From Yimella lutea (GTDB lineage: Bacteria > Actinomycetota > Actinomycetes > Actinomycetales > Dermatophilaceae): DNA of 64,000 nucleotides. Both the position numbers and the translations under genes were made by a program. The stretch is from NCBI RefSeq assembly GCF_006715095.1, contig NZ_VFMO01000001.1, positions 2,852,001-2,916,000 of the forward strand, written 5' to 3'. Shown here one piece after another: positions 28,299 to 58,738 of the stretch; position 1 is the stretch's first letter; each line of letters begins with the position of its first letter. The notes beneath the pieces were generated by a model. That model saw nothing but the letters and a program-made list of their open reading frames with translations, searched no databases and was not told the DNA's origin.

Positions 28299-28314
28299 GG
28301 GTTACGGTGGCGAC

Positions 28315-31423
<3,109 letters not shown>

Positions 31424-46745: not shown

Positions 46746-47894
46746 CTACCCGCCTGGCTCACCTCGTACCAGGCGCCAACCTCCGTTCCGTTGTTCGGCC
46801 AGACCGAGTGCGTTCAGTTCACCCAGTCCGGCCAGCACTTCAGCCACCGCCAGACCTGCCCGCGCCACGAGTTGGTCGACATTCACCGTTCTGGTTGCCG
46901 GGAAAGCGTCCCTGGTACGAGCCGCCACTTCCGAGACGAGATCGAGCAGAGTGTCGGGTTCGCGCCGATCGGGTGCAGCGCAGGCCTCGAAAGGACCGAG
47001 CAGTTCGATCACCTCGCTCGCATCACACACCAGGTGCGCTCCCTGGCGGATCAGTTCGTGGGAGCCGGCGCTGGTCGCGGAGGTCACCGGTCCGGGCATC
47101 GCACCCACCGGGCGCCCGAGATCATTCGCGTAGCTCGCGGTGTTGAGCGATCCGGACCGCAGACCCGCTTCGACCACCACCGTGCCGCCGGTGAGGGCCG
47201 CGATCAACCGGTTGCGAGCAAGAAACCGGTACTTCATCGGTGTCTGTCCCGGCGGATACTCCGATACGAGGACGCCGTCGTCCCGGATGCGGTCCAGTAG
47301 GTCGCGGTGCGCCGCTGGGTAAGCACGGTCGAGCCCACAGGCGAGCGCGGCGACTGTCGCCGATCCCGAGCCGAGTGCTCCCTCGTGCGCTGCGGCGTCG
47401 ATCCCGAATGCCGCACCCGAGACCACTGTGACGCCGTTGCTGCTCAGTTCGGCGGCCAGGGTCCGCGCGAGCGTGCTTCCGTACGGCGTGGCCGCCCGGG
47501 ACCCCACGATCGCGACCGAACGGGCGACCAACTGATCGAGCCGTCCGTGCCCGCGCGCCCACAGACACCAGGGAGGCACGGCCAGATCGTCCAGGCCGGT
47601 CGGCCATTCGTCGTCGCCGGGGAAGATCGGTCGCATTCGCAGGCACCTTGCGGCGTCCAACAACCGATCGAGTTCGAGTTGTTCGATGCGTGCACGGCAC
47701 CGTTCGAACGGTCCGCCGAGACCGTTCTGCACGGTCGTCCACGCGTCCTGGGCCGACAGGCCCACCAGCTTCGGGGTGACGACGCGATCGAGTGGTTCGA
47801 CGGCGATGTTGAGCCGCAGCCTTGCCTCGCGTTCGGCAGTCAGGTGCCGCATTTCGGCGTCGAGCGACTGCCGGTGACCGGACTCGGTACTCAT
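46746..47894 (-). CDS. dprA: DNA-processing protein DprA
   Basis: Loads RecA onto incoming single-stranded DNA in natural transformation. 382 residues with the DprA Rossmann domain: AIVGSRAATPYG, VVSGAAFGIDAAAHEGAL, ALACGLDRAYP, SEYPPGQTP, FLARNRLIAALTGGTVVVEAGLRSGSLNTA. A winged-helix-like C-terminus follows. ATG 47894 overlaps the old comM stop as ATGA, so it was coupled to comM before the element inserted; it is now fed by whatever reads through the element end. Confidence 0.93.
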   Translation of the reverse strand: MSTESGHRQSLDAEMRHLTAEREARLRLNIAVEPLDRVVTPKLVGLSAQDAWTTVQNGLGGPFERCRARIEQLELDRLLDAARCLRMRPIFPGDDEWPTGLDDLAVPPWCLWARGHGRLDQLVARSVAIVGSRAATPYGSTLARTLAAELSSNGVTVVSGAAFGIDAAAHEGALGSGSATVAALACGLDRAYPAAHRDLLDRIRDDGVLVSEYPPGQTPMKYRFLARNRLIAALTGGTVVVEAGLRSGSLNTASYANDLGRPVGAMPGPVTSATSAGSHELIRQGAHLVCDASEVIELLGPFEACAAPDRREPDTLLDLVSEVAARTRDAFPATRTVNVDQLVARAGLAVAEVLAGLGELNALGLAEQRNGGWRLVRGEPGG

Positions 47895-47989
47895 GCCGCC
47901 TCCTGTGCCGACCGCAGACCCAATGCCTGCATGAGATGTGGCGCCTGCGGGCGATCAGCGCCGGCGAGGTCGGCGAGTGTCCAGGCCAG
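47891..47989 (-). pseudogene. comM: 3' end of comM cut off by the integrated element
   Basis: From the CTG at 47987-47989 the frame reads LAWTLADLAGADRPQAPHLM and ends SAQEAA-stop. This is the C-terminus of ComM (Mg-chelatase-like helicase), 31 residues after the shared leucine codon, separated by 9.3 kb from the rest of the gene (57308-58738). Upstream sequence in this frame (to 48106) belongs to the element. Confidence 0.93.
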
Positions 47990-48015
47990 CCCGAAGCATG
48001 AGCAAAGGCGTATGT
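47965..48015. other. Attachment site at the dprA-proximal end (attR)
   Basis: Minus-strand reading: element sequence CATGCTTCGGG, then the CTG core at 47987-47989, then comM sequence GCCTGGACACTCGCC. The right half completes the ComM frame; the left half is element (attP) sequence. Confidence 0.8.
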
Positions 48016-48084
48016 GGGTTGGGAAACCCCCGCGACGGCGGCAACCGTCCGGGGGCATGACGCAGAACAGTAGGAGGTTCTGAC

Positions 48085-48273
48085 GTGGGATCGATCGTAC
48101 AGACATGGGTGCAGGTGTGCACCCTTCTGCAGGGCACCGCGTTACTCGCCGTCCTCGGCGCTCTCATCGTTGCGGTGCTGCGCCTGCACTACTTGCTTCA
48201 CCGGACTGAGCAGCCGTCACTTTCAACGACACCTGCGCCCGAGGTTGAGCACCCGGCTCGGTGGTCGGCGTGA
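48085..48273 (+). CDS. Small single-pass membrane protein of unknown function
   Basis: A 62-residue protein starting at GTG with AGGAGG 7-12 bases upstream, a very strong ribosome binding site. Residues about 8-34 (VQVCTLLQGTALLAVLGALIVAV) form one membrane helix, followed by a polar tail. First of three + strand genes at the attR end of the element; its stop overlaps the next start as GTGA. No family recognised. Confidence 0.6.
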   Translation: MGSIVQTWVQVCTLLQGTALLAVLGALIVAVLRLHYLLHRTEQPSLSTTPAPEVEHPARWSA

Positions 48274-48524
48274 CCTGGCAGGAAAAGCGCAACGGCTGGA
48301 TCGGCGTCGATGGGCAGACCATCCGCAGCGCCGACACCTTCACCGAGGTTCACATCGAGTGGGACGTACCCGAGCGCTCCGACGCCGTAGCGGTCCAACT
48401 CGCTTGGTATGAGGGCGAGCTCGCCCTGCACGTCCGAACCGATGAATGGGCCGTGCTCACCAAGCGCACAGCACTCGACGTTGCTGCCTCCATCATCCGG
48501 CTCGCCAGTCAGATGCCCGACTGA
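48270..48524 (+). CDS. Unknown small protein of the integrated element
   Basis: An 84-residue acidic protein translated from GTG 48270, overlapping the upstream membrane-protein gene by 4 bases. It appears mostly beta-stranded in the first 60 residues (VHIEWDVPE, VAVQLAWYEGELALHV) with a C-terminal helix (LDVAASIIRLASQM). I recognise no domain. The tight coupling suggests that it acts with its neighbours. Confidence 0.55.
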   Translation: MTWQEKRNGWIGVDGQTIRSADTFTEVHIEWDVPERSDAVAVQLAWYEGELALHVRTDEWAVLTKRTALDVAASIIRLASQMPD

Positions 48525-48552
48525 ACACCAACCCAACCGAAAGGAACTGACC

Positions 48553-48885
48553 ATGCCCGCACGACGGATCACGCCGATTGAGCTCCGGATCACCGAAGGG
48601 TCGAACGAACTCTACTTCTCCGAGAACTCCGACTTGAGCGACCTCATGGCGACCACTCGCCCGACGTGGCCGCGACTGCCGATCAACGCCGAAGGTGGCT
48701 TCGTCCTCATCGCGCTCGACTGTGACGGCGACTTCGATCAGGTCGTTGTCGCACCGCCCGCCGGGTCGGATCACTCGCACACCGTCGAAATGATGCTCAG
48801 CGCCCGCGACGCAGCGCATGAGGTATATCGCGCTCTCGACTACATCGGGTCCGGCAAAGAGGTGCCCTCGCTCTACAACAACTGA
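48553..48885 (+). CDS. Unknown 110-residue protein of the integrated element
   Basis: Starts at ATG 48553 with AAGGAACTGACC just upstream. The sequence is acidic with a central hydrophobic strand (GGFVLIALDCDGDFDQVVV) and a C-terminal helical part (MLSARDAAHEVYRALDYIG). No family recognised. Third gene of the + strand cassette; a short hairpin follows 100 bases later. Confidence 0.55.
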   Translation: MPARRITPIELRITEGSNELYFSENSDLSDLMATTRPTWPRLPINAEGGFVLIALDCDGDFDQVVVAPPAGSDHSHTVEMMLSARDAAHEVYRALDYIGSGKEVPSLYNN

Positions 48886-49214
48886 GAACGATTCTCGCGG
48901 CGTCGGACAGCGCCCTAGCCGCGTCACCAAAACAGTTGTCGCGCCCGGTGATTGACCTCTAGACCCTTGAACCGGCAAGGGTTGCCCCCGGCTCGCAGTG
49001 CACGGCCAACCGGGGGTTAGCGACAGCCTACGCGCCTTCGGCGGGTGGGCTAGTCGGCGTGGGCTGGAATCAACGCGAGGTCGGTTCTTTGGGAGGGATT
49101 CCCATCATTGCGCCCACCGTCAGGTGGTCCGCGCCTGCGAACTCGCCCCCACCCCACTCCCCCCCACCCCCGGCCCGCGCTGACGCTCCCGGCACAGTCA
49201 GCTCGTATCCCCCC
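48886..49214. other. Non-coding stretch between the unknown cassette and the IS110 element
   Basis: No gene seen. It holds a GC-rich hairpin (CCCCCGG at 48985-48991 pairing with CCGGGGG at 49010-49016) that could end the + strand cassette, and a C-rich tract around 49145-49175. The base composition is unlike coding sequence. Confidence 0.4.
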
Positions 49215-49458
49215 GGTGACCCCCGTTACCGTCTTGGTGAGCCTTGAAGCAAGGCTCCTGGTCGCCGGCCCCGGCATGACTGACTGCCCCTGTCGTTTGC
49301 ATGATCCGGGGGGTGTTGTCACCGGGTGCTGGTGGCGCTGGTGGACCGCTGATAGGGACCGGGCCGCCCGAACGCCTGGGTAGGTCTCTTCGTAACGTGG
49401 ATGTCGGCTTCCTGCGCCTGATCTGGTGACCAGCCGCTCGGACGCACGAGGAGGGACC
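49215..49458 (+). ncRNA. Candidate bridge RNA / left non-coding end of the IS110 element
   Basis: IS110-type elements express a structured guide RNA from the non-coding end upstream of the transposase. Here about 240 bases without coding potential lie between the probable element end and the transposase ATG, with several short inverted repeats (for example GAGCCTTG and CAAGGCTC at 49239-49256). Assigned from element architecture; the guide loops have not been worked out. Confidence 0.45.
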
Positions 49459-50652
49459 ATGTCTCGACCTGACTACGCGGTGTACATCGGGCTCGATGTC
49501 GGCAAACAGACGCACCACGCCTGCGCGCTGAACGTCGATGGCACACGGCTGCACGACAAACCGTTGCCCCAAGACGAGTCGTCGCTGCGTGGCCTGCTGA
49601 CCAAACTCGGCACGCACGGTCGCCTGCTGGTGGTGGTCGATCAACCCGCAACGATCGGCGCGCTGCCGGTCGCGGTTGCTCGTGCCATGGGCGTGGACGT
49701 CGCCTACCTTCCCGGGCTGGCGATGCGCCGTATCGCCGACCTGCACCCCGGCAACGCCAAGACCGACGCAAGGGACGCGTACGTCATCGCCGAAGCCGCC
49801 CGGTCGATGCCGCACGCCCTGCGACGGGTCGACGTCGGCGACGACACCCTGGCCGACCTGGAAGTCATCGTCGGCTTCGATGACGACCTGGCCGGACAGG
49901 TCACCGCACAAGCAAACCGGATCAGAGGCCTTCTGACACAAGTGAACCCAGCCCTCGAACGTGTCCTCGGCCCACGCATCCAACACCCAGCAGTCCTCGA
50001 ACTCCTGACCCGCTTCGGTGGCCCGACCGGCCTGCGCGCGGCCGGCCGGCGACGGTTGCTCGCCGTCGCCAAACCCCGCGCGCCCCGCTCCTACCAACGC
50101 CTCGTCGACGACATCCAGACAGCGCTCACCGAGCAGACCGTCACCGTCCCTGGCACCCGCGCCGCCGAGCTCGTCCTGCCCAAACTCGCGACCGGACTGG
50201 CTCGCCTGCTGCACGACCGCGCCGATCTGGGAACCCAACTGGAGGACATGCTCGATGCCCACCCTCTTGCCGCGGTCCTGACCTCGATGCCCGGCATCGG
50301 CGTCAGGACCGGCGCACGGATCCTGCTCGAAGTCGGCGACGGCTCGAGCTTCCCCACCTCCGGCCACCTCGCCGCGTACGCCGGCCTCGCACCCGTCACC
50401 CGCCGATCCGGCACCTCGATCCGCGGTGAGCACCCCGCCCGAGGCGGCAACAAGCACCTCAAACGAGCGATGTTCCTCGCCGCGTTCGCCGCACTGCACG
50501 ACCCGACCTCGCGGGCCTACTACGACCGCAAACGCGGCCAAGGCAAGAAGCACAACGCCGCCCTCATCTGCCTCGCCCGACGACGCTGCGACGTGATGTA
50601 CGCGATGCTTCGCGACGGAACCCTCTACCAACAGAAAACCCCCGCCGCTTGA
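49459..50652 (+). CDS. IS110-family transposase
   Basis: A 397-residue recombinase with the RuvC-like DEDD domain (YIGLDVGKQTHHA, VVVDQPATIG, NAKTDARDAYVIAE) and the C-terminal transposase_20 domain (SMPGIGVRTGARILLEVGD, LAAYAGLAPVTRRSG, GNKHLKRAMFLAAFAAL) that carries the catalytic serine region. Full length and no frameshift, so probably active. ATG 49459 follows GAGGAGGG. Guided by the upstream bridge RNA if the family rule holds. Confidence 0.93.
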   Translation: MSRPDYAVYIGLDVGKQTHHACALNVDGTRLHDKPLPQDESSLRGLLTKLGTHGRLLVVVDQPATIGALPVAVARAMGVDVAYLPGLAMRRIADLHPGNAKTDARDAYVIAEAARSMPHALRRVDVGDDTLADLEVIVGFDDDLAGQVTAQANRIRGLLTQVNPALERVLGPRIQHPAVLELLTRFGGPTGLRAAGRRRLLAVAKPRAPRSYQRLVDDIQTALTEQTVTVPGTRAAELVLPKLATGLARLLHDRADLGTQLEDMLDAHPLAAVLTSMPGIGVRTGARILLEVGDGSSFPTSGHLAAYAGLAPVTRRSGTSIRGEHPARGGNKHLKRAMFLAAFAALHDPTSRAYYDRKRGQGKKHNAALICLARRRCDVMYAMLRDGTLYQQKTPAA

Positions 50653-50739
50653 CGAAGACCATAGGGACACCCCCCCACCCCCACGAGGCGTCACTCATTG
50701 GTGACCCAGGGGGACGCCTCCGCCCCACCCCCCTCGCCG

Positions 50740-50854
50740 GCCCGCTCCGCACAGGGCCACAGGAGAGAGCAGCGCCGATATTCCACAGCGGGCCGCTCGG
50801 CTGCGGTGGGGGGGGTGCCTCGGGGGGATACGCGAAGCCCTGTGCGGAGCGGGC
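50740..50854. repeat. 17-bp perfect inverted repeat with 81-bp spacer
   Basis: GCCCGCTCCGCACAGGG at 50740-50756 is exactly reverse-complemented at 50838-50854. The spacer contains a further imperfect hairpin (CCACAGC ... GCTGCGGTGG) and runs of G. It lies in the 300-base non-coding gap between the transposase gene and the small zinc-binding gene. It may be a transcription terminator of the capsid operon, a packaging or recombination signal, or a remnant of another element. Confidence 0.85.
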
Positions 50855-50953
50855 TAGGGAGGCCGGATAGGGGCACCCCCGCCACCCTCATGCCGTGAGG
50901 TGACGGGGGTGCGTGACGGTTCGAGCGGGAACCCCTCGCGCTCGACCGTCGAT

Positions 50954-51142
50954 CTAGTGACCGGTGACGAACGCCATCGCCGCCCAGCAGTCTGGACAGT
51001 TGATGACGGTGCGTCGCCCGGTCAGGACGGTTCCGGTTGCCACGACGGGCCGGCCGCAGATCGTGCGCTCAGCCTGCGGTGACTCCATGTGACAGCGACG
51101 GCGCTGCGTCCGGTCGAGCAGCGCCGTCGCGCTCAGGATCAT
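50954..51142 (-). CDS. Small cysteine-rich (zinc-binding?) protein
   Basis: A 62-residue protein whose ATG overlaps the capsid gene stop as ATGA. It has Cys17-His18, Cys29 and a CPDC pair (C49, C52), in an arrangement seen in small actinophage zinc-binding proteins. Last gene of the minus-strand capsid block. Function unknown. Confidence 0.55.
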   Translation of the reverse strand: MILSATALLDRTQRRRCHMESPQAERTICGRPVVATGTVLTGRRTVINCPDCWAAMAFVTGH

Positions 51143-51984
51143 GCCGGCGCCGTGACCGTGAACTTGGCGATCCGGTTGGGAAGCACCACGTTCGCACCGA
51201 AGCGCCAGGTGCAGCGCAGCGCGATCGAGTCCGAGGCGAAGTAGACGTGCTCGGACTGTGCGACCTGCACCTGACCGACCGCGGACACGACCGCGCTCTT
51301 GTCGATCACCAGGCCAGCGCCCGAGGTCATGGCCGACGACACCAGCACCGGCACGTCGAGCAGCATCCGAGCACTGTCGTTCATCCCGGCACCGAGCAGG
51401 TTCTGCGCCGAGCCGGTCGCGGCCTTGAACTTCCGCAGGGACGCCCACGCATCCGGCGCAACGATGATGTGCGAGGGGGTGCCGCCATTGCCCTCGATCG
51501 TGGCGAAGGCATCGATCAGCTTGTCCAGGCTCGAGGCGACGGCTCCACCGTTGACGATGCCGGCCACGTTGAGCAGACCGGGCGGCGGTGTGACAGCGGG
51601 CGCGGTCGGCTTCGCCTGCGCGATGAACGCAGCATCTGCCGCCTTGGTGACGGCGCGGCGCACCGACTCCGACAGTTGGGTGCTCACGCCCGGCTGCATC
51701 CACTGCTCGCGCGACAGGCGCACGAGCTGGGACACCTTGCCGGTGTAGACCAGGACTTCGGACAGGGACGGGTCGGCCTCGGGGATTACGTCGCCCTCGG
51801 CGGTGAACGTCGCGGCGGCGTCGTCCACGTACGCGACACGCACCGCAGGCGCGTCACCTTCGACGCTTCCGGCCACGGTCGACGCCTGCAGGATCAGGGA
51901 CTCTCCGACCGCCTCGGCAGGTGCGAAGGTGAACACGTCCGGACGCCAGCCCGGTGCGCTGGTAACGGTTGTTTCAGTAGCCAT
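51139..51984 (-). CDS. Phage major capsid-like protein (HK97 fold)
   Basis: A 281-residue protein resembling HK97-type major capsid proteins of actinophages: an N-terminal strand region (VRVAYVDDAAATFTAEGDVI), the spine-helix-like segment LSRESVRRAVTKAADAAFIAQ-type helix after a VSQLVRLSREQW strand, and a P-domain ending in an ALRCTWRFGANV strand. It is shorter than most family members and has no separate delta domain or prohead protease beside it. A scaffold-like gene precedes it, as in phage head modules. ATG 51984 has GAAAGG upstream. It would form small capsids for a satellite, if functional. Confidence 0.72.
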   Translation of the reverse strand: MATETTVTSAPGWRPDVFTFAPAEAVGESLILQASTVAGSVEGDAPAVRVAYVDDAAATFTAEGDVIPEADPSLSEVLVYTGKVSQLVRLSREQWMQPGVSTQLSESVRRAVTKAADAAFIAQAKPTAPAVTPPPGLLNVAGIVNGGAVASSLDKLIDAFATIEGNGGTPSHIIVAPDAWASLRKFKAATGSAQNLLGAGMNDSARMLLDVPVLVSSAMTSGAGLVIDKSAVVSAVGQVQVAQSEHVYFASDSIALRCTWRFGANVVLPNRIAKFTVTAPA

Positions 51985-52163
51985 GTTGGTGGCCTTTCAA
52001 GGGAATGCGGGCACACGGGCACCGCGAAACGAATGATGTGTTTCGAGCGGTTTCGGCCCCTGGCCGGTCACCGTTGCCCCGCTGGGGCTACGTGTCCTCG
52101 GGACAGGCCACCGGCCCGGCATCCTCAGACACTGCAAGGATACCAGGCCGGTGAGAATGGTTA

Positions 52164-52670
52164 TCAGAACTGGGGAGCGAACGCCCCGCTGAATCCGGTA
52201 TCGCCGCGCATCTCGGGGTTGCGGCCTTCCTTCGGCACGATGTTGCCCGGACGCGGGCGCGACAGTCCGAGCCGGTCGGATGCGTCCCGGCATGCCTGCG
52301 TGATCTTCTCGGCGTCGGCGTTGCCGTCCTCGTCGAGCACGTCGGCCAGGCTCACCCCAGCCGCCCACAGCCCTTCGGGTTTGCTCAGGTGCACACCCGC
52401 CAGCCGCTCGACCTCGGCGCGCTGCAGACGCTCGACCGTGGCCCGCAGGGTGTCTCGCTCGCCCTCGGCCGCCCGCAGCTTGCGCCGGTACCGGGCAGCC
52501 TCGCGGTCGTCCTCGGTGCGCTCGTCGCCCTCAGTGCCTTCGCCCTCAGGCTCTGTGTGTGTAAGCGGCCCATTGCCGGGAGCGGGCTTGGTGGTGGTGC
52601 TCGCGGCCCCCTCCCCCTGGGTGTCGTCGCTGGTCTCGTCGGTCGGGTCGAGCTTGGTCTGCTCAGTCAC
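52164..52670 (-). CDS. Putative capsid scaffolding protein
   Basis: A 168-residue acidic protein: a disordered, Glu/Thr-rich N-terminal 60 residues, then a coiled-coil stretch (AARYRRKLRAAEGERDTLRA, continuing to about residue 95), and a C-terminal tail (RGDTGFSGAF). Acidic coiled-coil proteins directly upstream of a capsid gene are usually scaffolds. GTG 52670 follows AAGGAG. Assignment rests on composition and position. Confidence 0.55.
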   Translation of the reverse strand: MTEQTKLDPTDETSDDTQGEGAASTTTKPAPGNGPLTHTEPEGEGTEGDERTEDDREAARYRRKLRAAEGERDTLRATVERLQRAEVERLAGVHLSKPEGLWAAGVSLADVLDEDGNADAEKITQACRDASDRLGLSRPRPGNIVPKEGRNPEMRGDTGFSGAFAPQF

Positions 52671-52902
52671 GGTTGATCTCCTTCGGTGGGTTGATGATGG
52701 TCAGCTTCGGCACGTCCGCCGGCGTCAGCCCGACAGTGGCCAGTTCGGCCAACGTCACGCCGACGCCGGCGCGATAGCCCCAGTCGCAATCACTGGGGGC
52801 GAATCCGGCAGGGATGCCGTCGACGTCCTCGATCAGTTCCGGCGGCGGCTGGTAGTACGTCCCAACCTGCGCGTTTTGTCGCAAGTAGTCCTCACGGTTC
52901 AC
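52663..52902 (-). CDS. Unknown small protein upstream of the scaffold gene
   Basis: A 79-residue protein starting at GTG 52902 with AAGGAG 7 bases upstream; an ATG at 52986 in the same frame lacks this. The stop overlaps the scaffold start by 8 bases. Sequence is acidic with many aromatic/proline residues early (GTYYQPPPELIED) and a putative helix (TLAELATVGLTPADV). Possibly a head or gene-5-like small structural protein; not recognised. Confidence 0.5.
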   Translation of the reverse strand: MNREDYLRQNAQVGTYYQPPPELIEDVDGIPAGFAPSDCDWGYRAGVGVTLAELATVGLTPADVPKLTIINPPKEINRD

Positions 52903-53098
52903 GGTGTCTCCTTCGTTCGGTTGGTCAGTCCGGCCGCGCGTCAACGCATCCGGAACGCGGGTCAAAGCCAGGTGATCGGCGTTCATCGAGTCACCGCCGT
53001 TCCTGCGTTTGTGCAGGTCAGCGGCCTGGGTGTAGGTGGGTGAAGGGTTCCCGCTAACTCTCCTTGTATTTCCCCGCGGGAAAGTTTGTGGGAAACCT

Positions 53099-54493
53099 TC
53101 ACCACCCTTCACCCCCACCCGTTTCAAGCGGCGCGATGCTGTCTCGCGTCATGCCCTTTTTGGTCCGTCGAGCCTCGTATCCGAGCCGGTCAAGCTCCTT
53201 GCCAAGAGCCTTCTCCGTGAGCGGCTCAGCACCGTCCGAGACAGCCCACCGCTGCCATGCGGCGTAAAGCTCTCGGGTGGTTGCAGCGACCTGTGCGCCG
53301 ACTGTGCAGGCGTCGGTGATGAACCGGGCAACGTCGTCGCTCTCGGCCTTGTAGGCGTCCGTCGCGCGCATCACCGACGACGGTTCGGCCATGCCGTGAT
53401 CGAGGTAGTCGAGGTAGCCGGCCACCGCCCACAGCAGCACCTCATCGGCGGCAAGTTCGAGGCGTTCACCCAACCGCAGGTCGCGTGCCTCGGGCGGCAC
53501 CGTCACATCGAACGGGATCACCCGGACTCGTCGCCAGGTCGCCGGGTCGTTGCCCTTCACCGACGGCAGGTGGTTGGTGACGTAGATCAGTTGGTGGCTC
53601 GGTGCCCATGTCACCGGCTTCTGATACAGCGGTCGGGCCGTGATCGGGTCACCGCCGGTCAGTCGCTTCATCACCGCCTCGTCGAGCTTGCGCCCTTCTT
53701 CGGTCTCCGAGCCGATCACTAACCGGACGCCCAGCAGTTCCATCAACTCGGGGTTGGCGCTGCCTCGGCCGCGGTCGTGCGCCATTAGCAGCGCCGGGTC
53801 GATCACCGCGACGTAATCGCCCAGCGCGTAACCGAGCGCGTTCATTGCCGTGCTCTTACCGTTCGCGCCCGTGCCGATCAGGATCGGCAACAGGTGCTCA
53901 CGTACGCGGCCGTAGAGCGCCTGACCGATCACCCGGCGCAGGTACTCCCGTTCGCTCTCATCGGGCAGCACCGAGGCCAGGAACGTGCTCCACGTCGACC
54001 CCGCTGCTGTCTCGTCGTACGCGGCACGGGTGACCTTGGTCAGCCGGTCCCGCGCGTCGTGCTCGCGCAGTTGTCCGGTGCGCAGGTCGAGCGTGCCGTT
54101 CGCGCAGTTGAGTAGGTGCGGATCCGCGTCGAGGTCGTCGATCGTCGCGGCGAACTCCTCGAGCGCGGATGCCAGTCCGAGCACGCCCAGCACGCCGGCG
54201 TCGGTCTCGCACTTAGTGACATCAGCCCGCAGGGTCGGATCATGCAGGGAATCGGCCAGGGCATCGCGCAGCACGCTCAGCACCGCACGCTTGGCCGCCC
54301 CGCGTTCGTCCTCGCTCCACCGCTTGCCGTCGTAGACCATCCACCCGATCCCACGCACGAACAGCAGCCGGTCACGGTGGGACCGCGCCAGCCGGTAGGC
54401 CATTCGCAGTTGCCCGCGGTGACGCTCACCATCAGGTGAGACCGGCCGGCCGTCCTCGTCGAACTGGTCGACGTCGACACTGTGCAAACTCAT
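53099..54493 (-). CDS. Phage/plasmid primase-helicase (P4-type, superfamily 3 helicase)
   Basis: A 464-residue protein with the D5/P4-type helicase C-terminal module. Walker A GTGANGKST begins at residue 207 and Walker B-like LVIGSETEEGRKL follows, with LIYVTNHLPSV as the sensor strand and a winged-helix region near the C-terminus. The primase part is short or absent; the N-terminus has a D5-type domain (LFVRGIGWMVYDGKRW). It would support replication of the excised element. ATG 54493 overlaps the upstream stop as ATGA. Confidence 0.82.
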   Translation of the reverse strand: MSLHSVDVDQFDEDGRPVSPDGERHRGQLRMAYRLARSHRDRLLFVRGIGWMVYDGKRWSEDERGAAKRAVLSVLRDALADSLHDPTLRADVTKCETDAGVLGVLGLASALEEFAATIDDLDADPHLLNCANGTLDLRTGQLREHDARDRLTKVTRAAYDETAAGSTWSTFLASVLPDESEREYLRRVIGQALYGRVREHLLPILIGTGANGKSTAMNALGYALGDYVAVIDPALLMAHDRGRGSANPELMELLGVRLVIGSETEEGRKLDEAVMKRLTGGDPITARPLYQKPVTWAPSHQLIYVTNHLPSVKGNDPATWRRVRVIPFDVTVPPEARDLRLGERLELAADEVLLWAVAGYLDYLDHGMAEPSSVMRATDAYKAESDDVARFITDACTVGAQVAATTRELYAAWQRWAVSDGAEPLTEKALGKELDRLGYEARRTKKGMTRDSIAPLETGGGEGW

Positions 54494-54702
54494 CGCGGAT
54501 CACCTTCGATCAGACGGACGTCGTAACCCTCGTGCTGCAACATGGACAGCAGGTCCGACAACCGCTCTCGTCGGACCGCACGGGCCCGCACGATGCGATC
54601 GTTCGTGGACGGCACGCCGTACCGCTTGAACACCTCGGAGACGTGCCCACGGACGAACACGTATCGGGTACTCGACCCGTCGAAAACGCTTGCGTGCTTC
54701 AC
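54490..54702 (-). CDS. Small protein preceding the primase gene
   Basis: A 70-residue basic protein from GTG 54702, overlapping genes on both sides by 4 bases. It contains a helix-turn-helix-like stretch (VSEVFKRYGVPSTNDRIVRA). It may be a small DNA-binding protein. No close family recognised. Confidence 0.5.
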   Translation of the reverse strand: MKHASVFDGSSTRYVFVRGHVSEVFKRYGVPSTNDRIVRARAVRRERLSDLLSMLQHEGYDVRLIEGDPR

Positions 54703-55016
54703 GCTGCACCACCCCGCAGGGAGTCATGCACGGCGCGGCGCTGCGTCTCGCGAGCGTGTTCCAGCCGCTCGGCAACCTCGGCCCACGGATCACGCACCGG
54801 GTCGATACCGAGCCGGTCGAACACCGGGTGCCGGTCACCGCCAGCGGCGGACCGAACTACCTCAACGGCGCGTTGCCAGTCCTCGGCATCCATGCGGCCA
54901 GCAGCAGCCAGGCCAGCTCTCAGGCCGTTGTCGTACGCCGCCTCGGATGTGGCGATGAGGAACCTGAGACTGAACGCCGGCTGGTCGAGGTCGCCAATCA
55001 TCGTCGGCTCACTCAT
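54699..55016 (-). CDS. Unknown 105-residue protein of the element
   Basis: Starts at ATG 55016, overlapping the end of the upstream gene, and overlaps the next gene as GTGA. Highly helical and acidic; repeated Ala-Glu-Arg stretches (EDWQRAVEVVRSAAGG, WAEVAERLEHARETQRRAV). Similar small helical proteins are common in actinobacterial satellites. Function unknown. Confidence 0.5.
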   Translation of the reverse strand: MSEPTMIGDLDQPAFSLRFLIATSEAAYDNGLRAGLAAAGRMDAEDWQRAVEVVRSAAGGDRHPVFDRLGIDPVRDPWAEVAERLEHARETQRRAVHDSLRGGAA

Positions 55017-55221
55017 CGGAACCACCACCAGCGAGCACCAGGGCAGCCAGGCGGCGGGCACAGACCGGCCCGAGCAGGCGGTGCACCGATTTGTCAGCGT
55101 GCAGCACGTGGCGGCAGACGCGGCAGCGGGCGATTGCGGTAGAATCAATCTCAGCGCCGCCAAACGCTTTTGCCGCTCCCGGGTCACCCTGGGGGCGGCT
55201 TCTTTGTGGGAGAAGGGTCAC
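55009..55221 (-). CDS. DUF6011-like small zinc-binding protein
   Basis: A 70-residue protein with CRVCRHVLHADKSVHRLLGP followed by VCARR, the C-x2-C ... GPxCARR pattern of DUF6011 proteins found in actinophages. Probably binds zinc through the three cysteines. It overlaps the neighbouring genes at both ends. Confidence 0.6.
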   Translation of the reverse strand: MTLLPQRSRPQGDPGAAKAFGGAEIDSTAIARCRVCRHVLHADKSVHRLLGPVCARRLAALVLAGGGSDE

Positions 55222-55421
55222 GCTGCACCACCCCGCAACAGCACCACCAGGCGATCGCGCTGCTCAGGCGTCAGCGGCGGGGCCTGGGCGACAACCTTGG
55301 CGATGTGCTCGGCCAGCTTCTCGGCACGAAGATTGCGGCGCGCAGCCGCTAGGTCGGGGTCGTCAGCGGGTCGCGATCGAGACAGGGAAGCGACTCGCGC
55401 TCTCTCTGTAGTCCAAGACAT
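55218..55421 (-). CDS. Small helical protein of the element
   Basis: A 67-residue basic protein with LRAEKLAEHIAKVVAQAPPL and TPEQRDRLVVLLRGGAA, a tail seen in small proteins of actinobacterial prophage-like elements. ATG 55421; the stop overlaps the DUF6011 gene start as ATGA. A role as recombination directionality factor is possible, since the equivalent phiRv1 region has one, but not shown here. Confidence 0.5.
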   Translation of the reverse strand: MSWTTERARVASLSRSRPADDPDLAAARRNLRAEKLAEHIAKVVAQAPPLTPEQRDRLVVLLRGGAA

Positions 55422-55504
55422 TGAAGCCTCTCAGGGGACGAAAAATCGTCCTCCGCTGAGAGGCTGAATGATGACGTAAACCGCGCCAACTCGGACTTGC
55501 TACT

Positions 55505-55888
55505 TCATAGCCTAGCAACTAGATCGGAAAGCACAAGACGCGACACGCCTGCGTCTAGTACGGCATTCACAACAGCCTGCAGTCTGGGATCCGGCCAGCG
55601 ACGCGTCAGTGTCAGGCCGCATAACGGACACTCCAGGCGCAACCGGGTGCGATCGTCGGCACCCGGTGCTCGCGCCTCCGGTGACACGGTGCCGTCGAAC
55701 GCGGCAAACATCCAAGGGAACTCCTTGCCTGCAGCATCGACGGCCTGTTTCACCATCACGCCCATCGGTTGAAACGGCCAGATAATGACCTCACGACTGC
55801 CAGACTCGCGCCCAAGGACACCGACATAGGCGACCTTGGTGGGATGCGAGACCGCCCGGCACTCGATACCTACGCACTCATCATTCAT
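55505..55888 (-). CDS. Unknown 127-residue protein with zinc-ribbon-like motif
   Basis: Starts at ATG 55888, overlapping the integrase stop by 8 bases, so it is coupled to the integrase. It contains CPLCGLTLTRRW, half of a zinc ribbon, and a C-terminal helical segment. No family recognised. Confidence 0.5.
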   Translation of the reverse strand: MNDECVGIECRAVSHPTKVAYVGVLGRESGSREVIIWPFQPMGVMVKQAVDAAGKEFPWMFAAFDGTVSPEARAPGADDRTRLRLECPLCGLTLTRRWPDPRLQAVVNAVLDAGVSRLVLSDLVARL

Positions 55889-57284
55889 GCGCGCCGCCCT
55901 TCCACTCAATGCGGACCGTGCCCGGCCGGAACGTTCGCACGCCGCGGCCGGGTGGGTCGATGCGAACCGTCATCAGCAGATCGATAACGGCTCGCTGCTG
56001 ACCGACGGCTAGTCCATCCCATGCCGCCTCGACGTCCTTGGCGTCGACCAGCGGCCCGAGCACCGGCACCCGGCCAGCGTCGACCAGCCGGCCCTCGACC
56101 TGGGCAAGGTTCTGCCGTAGACGCTCTGTGACAGCACGTAGTTGTGCGGGCGTCAGGCTGCCGTCGGCGAACTCCACGGCGACCGACTCCAAGCGGGAAC
56201 GGATCGCGTTCGCCTCGGCACGCAGCGCGGCCTTGTCTGGGGCTGCTGTCGGCTCCTGCAGTAGGTCGCGGGCGTCAGGGCGCTGCAGGCGTGCCACGAC
56301 GACGGAACGCACGTATTTGTCGACCGGGTCGGCCATGCGCGCGAAATGACCTGTCGACCCCGCGCAGCGGTAACTACGGATGCCACGACGGGCGCCACCG
56401 CCAGCGTGCACCGTCCAGCCGCAGACGCCGCACAGAGCAAGGCCGGTCAGTAGGTAGTTGCTCGCCCGCACGATGCCATGCCGCCTGCCGTCGATCTTGT
56501 CGACCGCTGCTCGCCACGTTTCTTCGGGCACCAGCGCCGGCCAGACAGCGGCGGCCACAACCTCGCCATGATGGGCACGCAGACCGGCGTTGCGAGGGTT
56601 GAGCAGCACGCGGCGCACGGTGTCGTGCGACCACTCCGGGGGCTCGCCCTTGCGTCGACCCCACCGCTCCTGGGTCGTGGCAACGTCCTCGCCGTTCAAC
56701 CATTTGGCCAGCGCACCGAGAGGCACGCCGGCGAGGAACCGGGCATACATGCCGCGCACGATCGCGGCCTCCGACTCGCGCACGGTCATGCCGTCGGAAT
56801 CGTATCCGAACGGTCGGCGCCCACCGCCCCATCGGCCCGCCTGGGCTTGCTGCTGCACAGCGCGTTTCTGCCGGTCGGACTTCAACTCGACCTCAAGCCG
56901 AGCGGCCGATGACAGCGTGTCGGCGACGAAACGGCCCGCGGCGGTCGAAAAGTCAAGATCGGCGCCGTTGACCAGTGAGAGCATGACATTGTGCTTCTGG
57001 CACGCCTCCCACAGCCGCAGCTCGTCGCGCCGGTTGCGCTGCAGTCGGTCTAGCGCCCATGCCACGACGACACCAACGGCGCCGGACTCGATATCGGACA
57101 GCAGCGCCTCGAAGCCTGGGCGCCGACGGCCGGTCTTCGCGGATAGGTCGTTGTCCTCGTGCAGGGCGTGCAACTCCCACCCGCGCGACGCAACGCGCTG
57201 TGAGCAGTCCTCGCGCTGCCGGTCGACGCCGGCTCGCTCCCCTGCTCGATCTTGTGAGATTCGGACGTAGACGCTTGCCTTCAC
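55881..57284 (-). CDS. Large serine integrase
   Basis: A 467-residue serine recombinase that would integrate and excise the element. The resolvase domain has YVRISQD with catalytic Ser10, ESGAVGVVVAWALDRLQR and a helix with LEVELKSDRQKRA. The recombinase domain includes GRRPFGYDSDGMTVRESEAA and NPRNAGLRAHHGEVV. A zinc ribbon follows (ALCGVCGWTVHAGGG ... SYRCAGS), then a coiled coil. GTG 57284 lies only 24 bases from the core of the att site, the usual arrangement. Confidence 0.93.
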   Translation of the reverse strand: MKASVYVRISQDRAGERAGVDRQREDCSQRVASRGWELHALHEDNDLSAKTGRRRPGFEALLSDIESGAVGVVVAWALDRLQRNRRDELRLWEACQKHNVMLSLVNGADLDFSTAAGRFVADTLSSAARLEVELKSDRQKRAVQQQAQAGRWGGGRRPFGYDSDGMTVRESEAAIVRGMYARFLAGVPLGALAKWLNGEDVATTQERWGRRKGEPPEWSHDTVRRVLLNPRNAGLRAHHGEVVAAAVWPALVPEETWRAAVDKIDGRRHGIVRASNYLLTGLALCGVCGWTVHAGGGARRGIRSYRCAGSTGHFARMADPVDKYVRSVVVARLQRPDARDLLQEPTAAPDKAALRAEANAIRSRLESVAVEFADGSLTPAQLRAVTERLRQNLAQVEGRLVDAGRVPVLGPLVDAKDVEAAWDGLAVGQQRAVIDLLMTVRIDPPGRGVRTFRPGTVRIEWKGGAHE

Positions 57285-57335
57285 GTCTGCTATCTTACAC
57301 TGCACGTCAGGCGCAGGCAGCGGTCGTAACCGCGC
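57285..57335. other. Attachment site at the integrase-proximal end (attL)
   Basis: Minus-strand reading: comM sequence CGACCGCTGCCTGCGC, the CTG core at 57310-57308, then element sequence ACGTGCAGTGTAAGATAG. Removing the element and joining this left half to the right half at 47987 gives CTGCGCCTGGCCTGGACACT, which is in-frame comM. Confidence 0.8.
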
Positions 57336-58738
57336 AGCGTGAGGATCCCGCGGTCGAGCTGATGGTCGAGCGGCCGCGTGACCTCCGCGGGCAGTCGCCA
57401 GCGCCCGGACCGCAGGACGGCCCCGCTGACCGAAGAGTTCGTCGTCTGACCTTCGCTCGCCCAGCGTTCGCGCTGTCGCCGTCGCGCGACCTCCACCCGT
57501 TCGGCGATCACCGCGGAGGGTTCCTGGGGCGGCGCGTTCTGCACCTTCGTCACTGCCTGGACCTGCAACTGCACGTCGACGCGATCCATCAACGGGCCGG
57601 ACAGCTTGTTGCGGTAGGTACGCAGAATCGTTGCGGTGCAACGACATCCACGGGTGAGGCCAAGGCCGCACGGGCACGGATTGGAAGCGAGGATCAGTTG
57701 GAAGCGCGCCGGGTACTTGAAGTAGCCCGCCGAACGCGCCACCTCGACCATGCCTGACTCCAGCGGTTGGCGCAGCGCGTCGAGCACCTCCCTGGAGAAC
57801 TCCGGGCACTCGTCCAGGAACAGCACTCCACCGTGCGCGCGACTGATCGCGCCGGGCCGCACTTTCTGCGTGCCTCCGCCGACCATCGCCGCCATGCTCG
57901 CGCCGTGGTGGGGCGCCACGAACGGGGCGCGGCGCACCAACTCGCCGTCCTTCAACGCGCCGAGCACTGAATGGATGGCCGTCACCTGCAGCGCGGTCTC
58001 CTCCGGCAGTGGCGGCAGGATGCCGACCAGCCGCTCGGCGAGCATCGTCTTGCCGGCTCCGGGAGGCCCGACCATCGCAAGGTTGTGTCCGCCGGCGGCG
58101 GCGACCTCGATCGCGAACCTGGCCTCTGGCTGACCGATGACGTCGGCCATGTCGTGGGCTGCGCGATCACCCCGCTTACGAGGGGCCGGCACGTCCGGCA
58201 ACGGCGGGAGCGGCCGCCTCTTGTACACACACTGGTAGCGCTCGACGATCTGGGCCAGGGATGACGCCGGTACGACCTGGATCCCGCTCACCAGACTGGC
58301 CTCGCGCGCATTGCCCACCGGCACCACGACGGTCGAGACGCCGTGATCACGTGCTGCAAGCACCGCCGGCAGCACGCCCGCGACCGGACGAAGCATCCCG
58401 TCGAGTCCGAGCTCACCGAGATGCACAATGTCGCGAATCACGCTGGGATCCAGTGCTTTTCGTGTCGCCAACACGGCCAACGCGATCGCGAGGTCGTAGC
58501 CGGATCCTTGTTTGGTCAGCGCCGCCGGCGAGAGATTCACGGTGATCTTGTCGCGCGGGAGCAGGAGCGCGCTGTTGGCCGCAGCAGCTTTGATCCGGTC
58601 GGGAGCCTGCCGGCATGCGCTGTCGGGCAGACCGATGATCCCGAATGCCGGCTGCCCGGGGCTGGTGAAGGCCTCGACCTCCACGACCGTGCCGTCGATA
58701 CCGTTGACGGCAACACACAGCGTCCGTCCCAGAGTCAT
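57290..58738 (-). pseudogene. comM: comM (Mg-chelatase-like helicase), truncated at the att site
   Basis: ComM is a hexameric helicase that promotes branch migration in natural transformation. The fragment keeps residues 1-477 and then adds five element-coded residues (TCSVR) and a stop. The N-terminal domain (VEVEAFTSPGQPAFGIIGLPD, NLSPAALTKQGSGYDLAIAL), Walker A MVGPPGAGKTML, Walker B GVLFLDE and NPCPCG are intact; the last 31 residues sit at 47891-47989. ATG 58738 overlaps the yraN stop as ATGA. Function is probably lost or reduced. Confidence 0.93.

Follow-up and report, generated by a model that had tools for sequence, protein, structure and literature searches.

Insertion of an element at comM

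The comM gene of Yimella lutea is interrupted near its 3' end by 9.3 kb of DNA, which raises the questions of what this element is, how it came to lie there and why comM was the gene that it broke. The answer that we hold to be probable is that a capsid-bearing, satellite-like element was inserted at comM codon 477 by a serine integrase of a family that has been kept on transformation genes. Coordinates refer to the window, i.e., the whole stretch of 64,000 nucleotides that was analysed.

The break falls at codon 477 of 508, and the core-to-core distance is 9,321 bp. On the minus strand, the 5' part of comM runs from 58738 to 57311 and is followed by CTG at 57310–57308 and then by element DNA; at the far end, CTG at 47989–47987 is followed by comM as far as its stop at 47891. 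The bases on either side of the two CTGs differ between the junctions (C and G before, A and G after), and the shared run is therefore exactly 3 bp. The boundaries given in the preliminary description (47987–57310, with a shared CTG) were thus borne out by the junction bases on both sides.

The 5' part (codons 1–476 plus CTG; 57290–58738, minus strand) matched TIGR00368 (YifB/ComM) at 430.6 bits, and its open reading frame reads on into the element to give a product that ends at 482 aa. The 3' part (codons 477–508 plus stop; 47891–47989, minus strand), delimited from the rejoined reading frame, adjoins host dprA (46746–47894, minus strand; TIGR00732, 232.9 bits) with a 4-base overlap at the comM stop. 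Fusion of the halves at the shared CTG gave 508 codons and a stop with the family motif present, in agreement with the length of about 508 codons first proposed. The fused product was compared over residues 1–508 with intact ComM of two congeners, where a mismatch had been expected to speak against the joined sequence, and both matched end to end (75.2% for G001 and 74.6% for G002). Insertion into comM is borne out by these intact genes and by insertions at the same codon elsewhere. The interrupted ComM lacks only its last 32 of 508 residues and, judged from sequence, has likely lost its function with them.

Integrase, attachment core and crossover

The integrase gene (55881–57284, minus strand; GTG start, 467 aa; phrog_95 integrase) encodes an N-terminal Resolvase domain (PF00239, 98.3 bits) followed by a Recombinase domain (PF07508, 51.9 bits), both above cut-off, and a possible zinc ribbon (PF13408) that at 18.9 bits was under the cut-off of 25.3; C285, C288 and C307 were invariant among 11 relatives. 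These domain matches and the 3-bp shared run uphold the earlier view of a serine integrase that uses a very short core. The closeness of attP to the integrase start was likewise confirmed, the distance being 23 bases from the CTG to the GTG at 57284 and not 24 as first stated.

Insertions at the R|x|AW codon of comM, a site inside a conserved motif, were noted in 23 elements from several genera, including the Yimella lutea element, with each insertion seen on at least one side. With intact ComM in the congeners and 22 further insertions at the same codon, the attB and attP reconstructed in the preliminary description stand. Both ends could be read in 15 of the comM elements; in all of these attL and attR were identical at codon bases 1–2, and in 12 an attP dyad was centred on the predicted crossover; the dyad of the Yimella lutea element was weak, with its best centre away from the predicted crossover. 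The crossover probably falls on the CT with which the CTG codon begins, predicted at 57310–57309 within the attL core (57308–57310, minus strand); the attR core (47987–47989, minus strand) was obtained by junction reading. Core dinucleotides among the 15 elements were CT in six, GT in seven, TT in one and TG in one. All 15 cores were asymmetric, which ruled out a palindromic core as the source of the two orientations.

Targets of the integrase family

Loci of 43 integrase relatives were fetched, and comM, tadA, a flp-like gene or tadC was present at the insertion in 30 of these (tadA, tadC or a flp-like gene in 18); 11 loci were without a recognised target and two had sub-cut-off targets only. 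Only one side was read for the tadA and flp-like targets; at L036 the flp-like ORF aligns over residues 9–64 of 67 and may be abutted and not broken. The same family also interrupts comEC and dprA, with both ends of each read, and a sister element in the Yimella lutea genome breaks tadC, which is intact in the congeners. Target changes on the integrase tree numbered at least 11 among 48 assigned integrases. Among 30 PF07508 loci that were fetched, four had a transformation or Tad gene; three of these were family members and the fourth (L191) a distant relative.

On a modest balance of the evidence, these integrases, which various mobile elements of Actinomycetes carry, satellites among them, appear to form a clade that specialises in natural transformation, that has been retargeted repeatedly and in which the polarity of attP at the comM site has flipped several times (polarity changes of the attP core being counted on the 23 comM rows alone). 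The targets included in such a clade are comM (two sites), tadA (several positions), tadC, the flp-like pilin, comEC and dprA.

A doubtful though possible alternative is that the integrases prefer strongly conserved coding motifs, with the link to transformation incidental. The motifs named for it are the ComM C-terminus, the TadA ATPase core and FLQRNRLIA of DprA. The location of the comM site in a conserved motif would fit this alternative, as would the break of dprA inside FLQ|RNRLIA, but many other conserved genes are not known to be targets, and target switches stay within one pathway. Moreover, the L003 clade of other serine integrases, with loci drawn from an order-wide set of 396 genomes, had these targets at none of 30 loci, wherever its attachment sites may lie (30/43 versus 0/30, Fisher P 1.4e-10).

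Genes of the element

The genes from the integrase through the capsid region are all on the minus strand. The integrase stop is overlapped by a small gene (55505–55888) without a Pfam or PHROG match, which is followed by a 67-aa gene (55218–55421) that resembles an ORF found close to many related integrases, a 70-aa, zinc-finger-like DUF6011 gene (55009–55221; PF19474, 27.8 bits, cut-off 26.6) and genes of 107 aa (54699–55022) and 70 aa (54490–54702) that are 60% and 93% like their respective sister-element counterparts. A D5-type primase/helicase of 464 aa is encoded at 53099–54493 (PF08706, 112.6 bits; phrog_1156). Upstream of the capsid gene lie a 79-aa gene (52663–52902) and, after it, the gene for a 168-aa acidic protein (52164–52670), neither with a Pfam or PHROG match; the latter protein is called scaffold-like by position and composition only and shares 34% over 95 aa with a protein of Cryobacterium element L134. 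The gene for the HK97-type major capsid protein (51139–51984, 281 aa; PF05065, 64.9 bits; phrog_10) is overlapped at its stop by a 62-aa gene (50954–51142) without a Pfam match.

On the plus strand, an IS110-family transposase gene (49426–50652; PF01548 and PF02371) is inserted in the element and may be a sign of its decay. A plus-strand cassette near attR comprises P1 (48553–48885, 110 aa), P2 (48261–48524, 87 aa) and the hydrophobic P3 (48085–48273, 62 aa), which are 95% (96% for DNA), 98% and 92% like their counterparts in the sister element. A defence role for P1–P3 and three other small genes was dropped, as PADLOC gave no match. A packaging or terminator role was considered for the repeated motif TTCGCAGGCGCGGACCACCTG, and neither was adopted.

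Satellite or defective prophage

The integrase and major capsid genes occur together in one small element, as expected of a capsid-bearing candidate satellite, or PICI as PMC10654092 uses the term. Of the element proteins scanned against Pfam and PHROG (P2 and P3 being screened via their sister-element copies), none matched a terminase, portal, tail or lysis family, and from its sequence the element is likely a satellite. An AlpA/Stl-type regulator is a feature of classical PICIs; no regulator domain was found among the element proteins scanned, and the element was not classed with these. The gene content fits the preliminary description of the element as satellite-like. No helper phage was found in three genomes of the genus, in which the phrog_2 profile, presumably that of TerL, gave weak matches only. 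Scans of viral contigs yielded no relatives of P1 and, for the capsid, one distant contig that was set aside with long phage-like ORFs of its own; the integrase, as a single-sequence query, had no relatives in viral and genome contigs.

It is unlikely that the element is instead a defective prophage, left over from a full phage after the loss of packaging and tail genes. Such an origin would be consistent with the IS inside the element, with tape-measure-sized ORFs (1,120 and 1,415 aa, judged by length) in two of the comM elements, each about 17 kb long, and with a PHROG-supported tape measure in one of 13 kb. Against it, 12 of the 15 two-ended comM elements, the Yimella lutea one included, measure 8.3–10.5 kb, and a capsid gene occurs without a tape-measure-sized ORF in three others that lie in comM, namely G395 and G286 (codon 477-equivalent site) and G010 (codon 84), with two proteins of each scanned. 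At E 1e-5 a search of 50,697 phage records gave no relative of the capsid, but a large protein set contained many.

Proposed explanation

For a satellite-like element, the following course is proposed. A large serine integrase would have recombined attP with attB in comM codon 477, with strand exchange at the central dinucleotide CT. The primase that the element encodes would serve its replication, and the terminase, portal and tail of a helper its packaging; excision would require a directionality factor. Broken DNA uptake or recombination may shield the element from removal by transformation, and the integrase family would be kept on these targets because of that protection. Hosts with such insertions would have lost transformation; in Micrococcus luteus, as reported in PMC4322843, deletion of tad genes abolished or strongly reduced it. 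That Tad pili are targeted as receptors to block other phages, with comM an unrelated site, is very unlikely. It would fit the 18 of 43 loci that have a tadA, tadC or flp-like insertion target, but the same family hits comM, dprA and comEC, none of which is a pilus gene.

If the proposed explanation is true, a single lineage of recombinases has switched target time after time inside one cellular pathway. Were the clade specialised as described, selection would act on the pathway hit and not on one DNA sequence. The idea that mobile elements disarm transformation would become testable in Actinobacteria, and the view of transformation as an intragenomic conflict would reach this group, beyond Proteobacteria and Firmicutes. 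Transformability, past or present, would also be suggested for many species of Actinobacteria, and the predicted attP/attB pairs at one conserved codon would constitute a panel of candidate integration tools.

Comparison with known systems

Insertions in comM are already known from Proteobacteria, and no report of the present pattern of comM, Tad and competence-gene insertions in Actinobacteria was found among the open-licence PMC papers listed, judged by title and opening of the abstract; the passages of PMC12884075 that were consulted make no mention of competence. Croucher et al. (2016, PMC4774983) described comM insertions in Aggregatibacter, Acinetobacter, Mannheimia, Francisella and Pseudomonas syringae, which resemble those reported here in their orthologous, imperfectly conserved comM position and in the inhibition of transformation proposed for them. 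Those elements carry integrases like CF65_00446, set apart here by description, whereas the present ones, in Actinobacteria, carry a large serine integrase with relatives also in tadA, tadC, flp-like genes, comEC and dprA. The integrase of Listeria phage A118, for which the central 2 bp alone set orientation, is also a large serine integrase that breaks a competence gene (PMC3556126), but its target comK is a regulator gene, its carrier a full phage and its host a member of the Firmicutes.

The phiRv1-type elements and candidate PICIs that Abad et al. (2023, PMC10654092) described from Mycobacterium are similarly small, with integrase and capsid genes and sometimes Int-S, helicase and scaffold genes; likened here by description, they differ in that three of the four examples shown lie at tRNA genes and the fourth, with Int-S, at a different place. 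The pathway whose genes the present integrase family breaks was described by Angelov et al. (2015, PMC4322843) for Micrococcus luteus, in which transformation depends on Tad/Flp pili; mobile elements are not the subject of that study.

comM junctions and element boundaries

The preliminary description placed a satellite-like element within comM (window 47987..57310, minus strand). The host genome is a single contig of 3.53 Mb, of which the window covers G000:C1:2852001-2916000. In window coordinates, the 5' part of comM was read on the minus strand from an ATG at 58738 to a CTG at 57310-57308, after which the sequence is foreign, and the 3' part, on the same strand, extends from a CTG at 47989-47987 to its end at 47891, sharing four bases with dprA. 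Joined at the CTG, the halves gave 508 codons; the interrupted reading frame, if translated, comprises 482 residues. The genomes of two congeners each contained a single ComM match, and residues 1-508 of the joined protein aligned with these intact proteins at 75.2% and 74.6% identity. Because of this end-to-end agreement, the proposed boundaries are considered sound; a mismatch between the joined comM and an intact relative, looked for as a refutation, was seen in neither congener. Elsewhere in the window, a TPP riboswitch was noted at 28311-28420 (+).

Recurrence of insertion at codon 477

When 11 aligned integrases were used as the query, 20 named loci were recovered. In 19 of them the insertion was in comM at the codon-477 position, as judged from tblastn matches or from the motif at the ComM C terminus; their genera included Humibacillus, Pedococcus, Arthrobacter, Pseudarthrobacter, Sinomonas, Microbacterium, Leucobacter, Cryobacterium, Blastococcus, Occultella and Kineosporia. 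Together with the window element and those of genomes G300, G595 and G726, this gave 23 elements at codon 477, with one junction or both observed for each. At the remaining locus (L131, Cryobacterium glucosi), comEC rather than comM was interrupted; the 3' part contains PF03772 and the 5' part, which follows a ComEA-like gene, stops at matching residues (the 5' part and ComEA were named by reading). Another insertion site in comM lies near codon 84 and was occupied in G010, G366, G544 and Sinomonas sp. ASV486; in the last of these (L123) comM was broken at both sites by two elements with different integrases. In the codon-84 element of G544 (L098), a 669-aa ORF and several more differ from what a phage satellite carries, and the element is perhaps an actinomycete conjugative one. 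In the comM element of G395, a capsid gene is accompanied by a gene (L050:15349-17031) whose product joins an N6/N4 DNA methylase to a restriction-like domain.

Predicted crossover core and polarity

In all 15 elements with both ends read, these being anchored through the comM reading frame on the codon between Arg and Ala-Trp, attL and attR were identical at the first two bases of that codon. When 32 centres were tried per attP, the best dyad fell exactly on this dinucleotide in 12 of the 15 (tied with a neighbouring centre in G300), the exceptions being the window element, L128 and G726. The core was CT in six elements, GT in seven, and TT and TG in one each, and was never palindromic. For the A118 integrase, orientation is reported to be set by the central 2 bp alone (PMC3556126). 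Of the 23 elements, 12 have the integrase at the end facing the 5' part of comM and 11 at the end facing the 3' part, and at least six polarity changes were needed for the 23 comM rows of a 41-row IQ-TREE phylogeny, some branches of which were weak. Two sister pairs with 100/99 support (L128/L115 and L125/L126) differed in polarity. Since the core keeps the polarity of comM, some lineages must have undergone a reversal of the attP core with respect to the integrase gene; that this went through a palindromic core is a guess.

Targets of the wider integrase family

Flanks at the integrase end of 43 loci of relatives of the comM element's integrase (L007, L011-L039 and L064-L076, the window's own locus being left out) were compared at E 0.01 with seven reference proteins, namely TadA, TadB, part of TadC, a pilin-like ORF at the flp position, ComM, DprA and part of ComEC. 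Four more relatives lay outside this sample (second copies in G213 and G025, and one each in G267 and G328). Such a gene was found at 30 of the 43 loci: a tadA-type ATPase gene at 14, comM at 12 (nine at codon 477 and three near codon 84), a flp-like ORF at three and tadC at one. At L011 and L014, dprA was matched in the flank and comM was assigned from separate evidence. Most target alignments stop at the insertion point; those of tadA end at residues 128 to 302, and its break points are therefore spread. The flp-like ORF, so named because it follows tadC, had no Pfam match; at L036 it was nearly complete and may be abutted instead of broken. Matches below the cut-off were noted to DUF4244 (L024) and RcpC/CpaB (L026), and 11 further loci (L020, L022, L025, L028-L031, L035, L039, L067 and L068) had no recognised target. 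L022 and L031 adjoin FtsK/SpoIIIE-type genes and L025 a hydrolase/hemerythrin gene. In G300, comM and dprA were each split by a serine-integrase element (L051, L088, L089), the latter within FLQ|RNRLIA.

As a control, another serine-integrase clade (query L003) was sampled in an order-wide draw of 396 genomes, 30 loci being taken from a longer match list; none had such a gene, the control being imperfect in that attachment-site positions of this clade are not established. Among 30 PF07508 loci, four had such a gene, three belonging to the integrase family itself and one (L191, tadA) to a distant relative. The difference between 30/43 and 0/30 gave a Fisher P of 1.4e-10, and removal of one of each near-identical pair (28/41) gave 4e-10, values that overstate independence because the loci share ancestry. 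On a quick tree of 62 rows, the tadA label needed nine changes (seven forced by supported branches) and the comM-477 label four (three forced); at least 11 target changes were required for seven labels among the 48 assigned rows alone.

Related elements in Yimella

A second element on the same chromosome, at 1,291,118 (L061, G000:C1:1282000-1301900), encodes an integrase 38% identical to that of the comM element. The two have 823 bp in common at 96%, comprising the small genes P1-P3 adjoining attR, and share two further stretches, one of 403 bp (90%) and one of 113 bp (86%); their replication genes differ. This element splits tadC, the 5' part of which ends ...RRELAMM before foreign sequence and the 3' part of which restarts VPVVFLVLPVTILFAVWPGLSALKLTM; tadC is uninterrupted in both congeners. 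A third element, in congener G001 (L112, G001:C1:1713500-1733400), has related parts and a tyrosine-recombinase-like gene and adjoins an ffh-like gene; it also contains a long ORF resembling a primase and another resembling a terminase small subunit (all named by reading). The tadC element carries a K+-channel-like gene. The motif TTCGCAGGCGCGGACCACCTG occurs in all three elements (window 49112-49143; L061 18053-18076 and 18165-18194; G001:C1:1723527), in two of them at the end of a K+-channel gene.

Relation to transformation

The targets of the integrase family cover the transformation machinery. In Micrococcus luteus, deletion of any ORF of two tad clusters except tadB is reported to abolish transformation, polar effects not being excluded by the authors; loss of tadB reduced it over 100-fold or abolished it, depending on marker orientation (PMC4322843). 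Loss of comEC is also reported to abolish it. In diderms, a key part in the recombination of heterologous DNA entering the cell is ascribed to ComM (PMC11472951). Croucher et al. argued, within a framework of cell-element conflict, that elements inserting in comK, comYC, comFA and comM inhibit transformation (PMC4774983). We infer that transformation is reduced by these insertions and that they are favoured by selection for this reason. Against this, ComM is shortened by its last 32 residues only and 11 of the 43 loci lack a recognised target; a preference of the integrases for conserved motifs is a possible alternative. In the open-licence literature searched, no account was found of a serine-integrase family in Actinobacteria whose insertions concentrate on transformation genes. 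By itself, the comM element would be a further example of a known element type.

Element content and comparison with known elements

The comM element measures 9,321 bp from core to core. From the comM 5' side, in the direction of comM, its first gene encodes a large serine integrase with Resolvase and Recombinase domains. Five small genes separate this from a D5-type primase/helicase gene, which is followed by a gene for 79 aa, one for an acidic scaffold-like protein of 168 aa, the HK97-type capsid gene and a gene for 62 aa. An IS110 transposase and P1-P3, all on the other strand, come last. The element proteins scanned gave no match to terminase, portal, tail or lysis families. None of 50,697 phage records matched the capsid at E 1e-5; at E 1e-3 the capsid had 837 matches, itself included, among 7,992 candidates scored in a large protein set, and the 120 of these that were listed included relatives in Rhodococcus, Gordonia and Janibacter. 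A search of the host genome with phrog_2, which we take to be the TerL profile, gave weak matches only. A satellite is the best reading of the element, its presumed dependence on a helper forming part of that reading. The joint presence of an integrase and a capsid in one small element, as seen here, is what Abad et al. used to identify candidate PICIs in Mycobacterium, and they grouped phiRv1 and phiRv2 with these candidates (PMC10654092).
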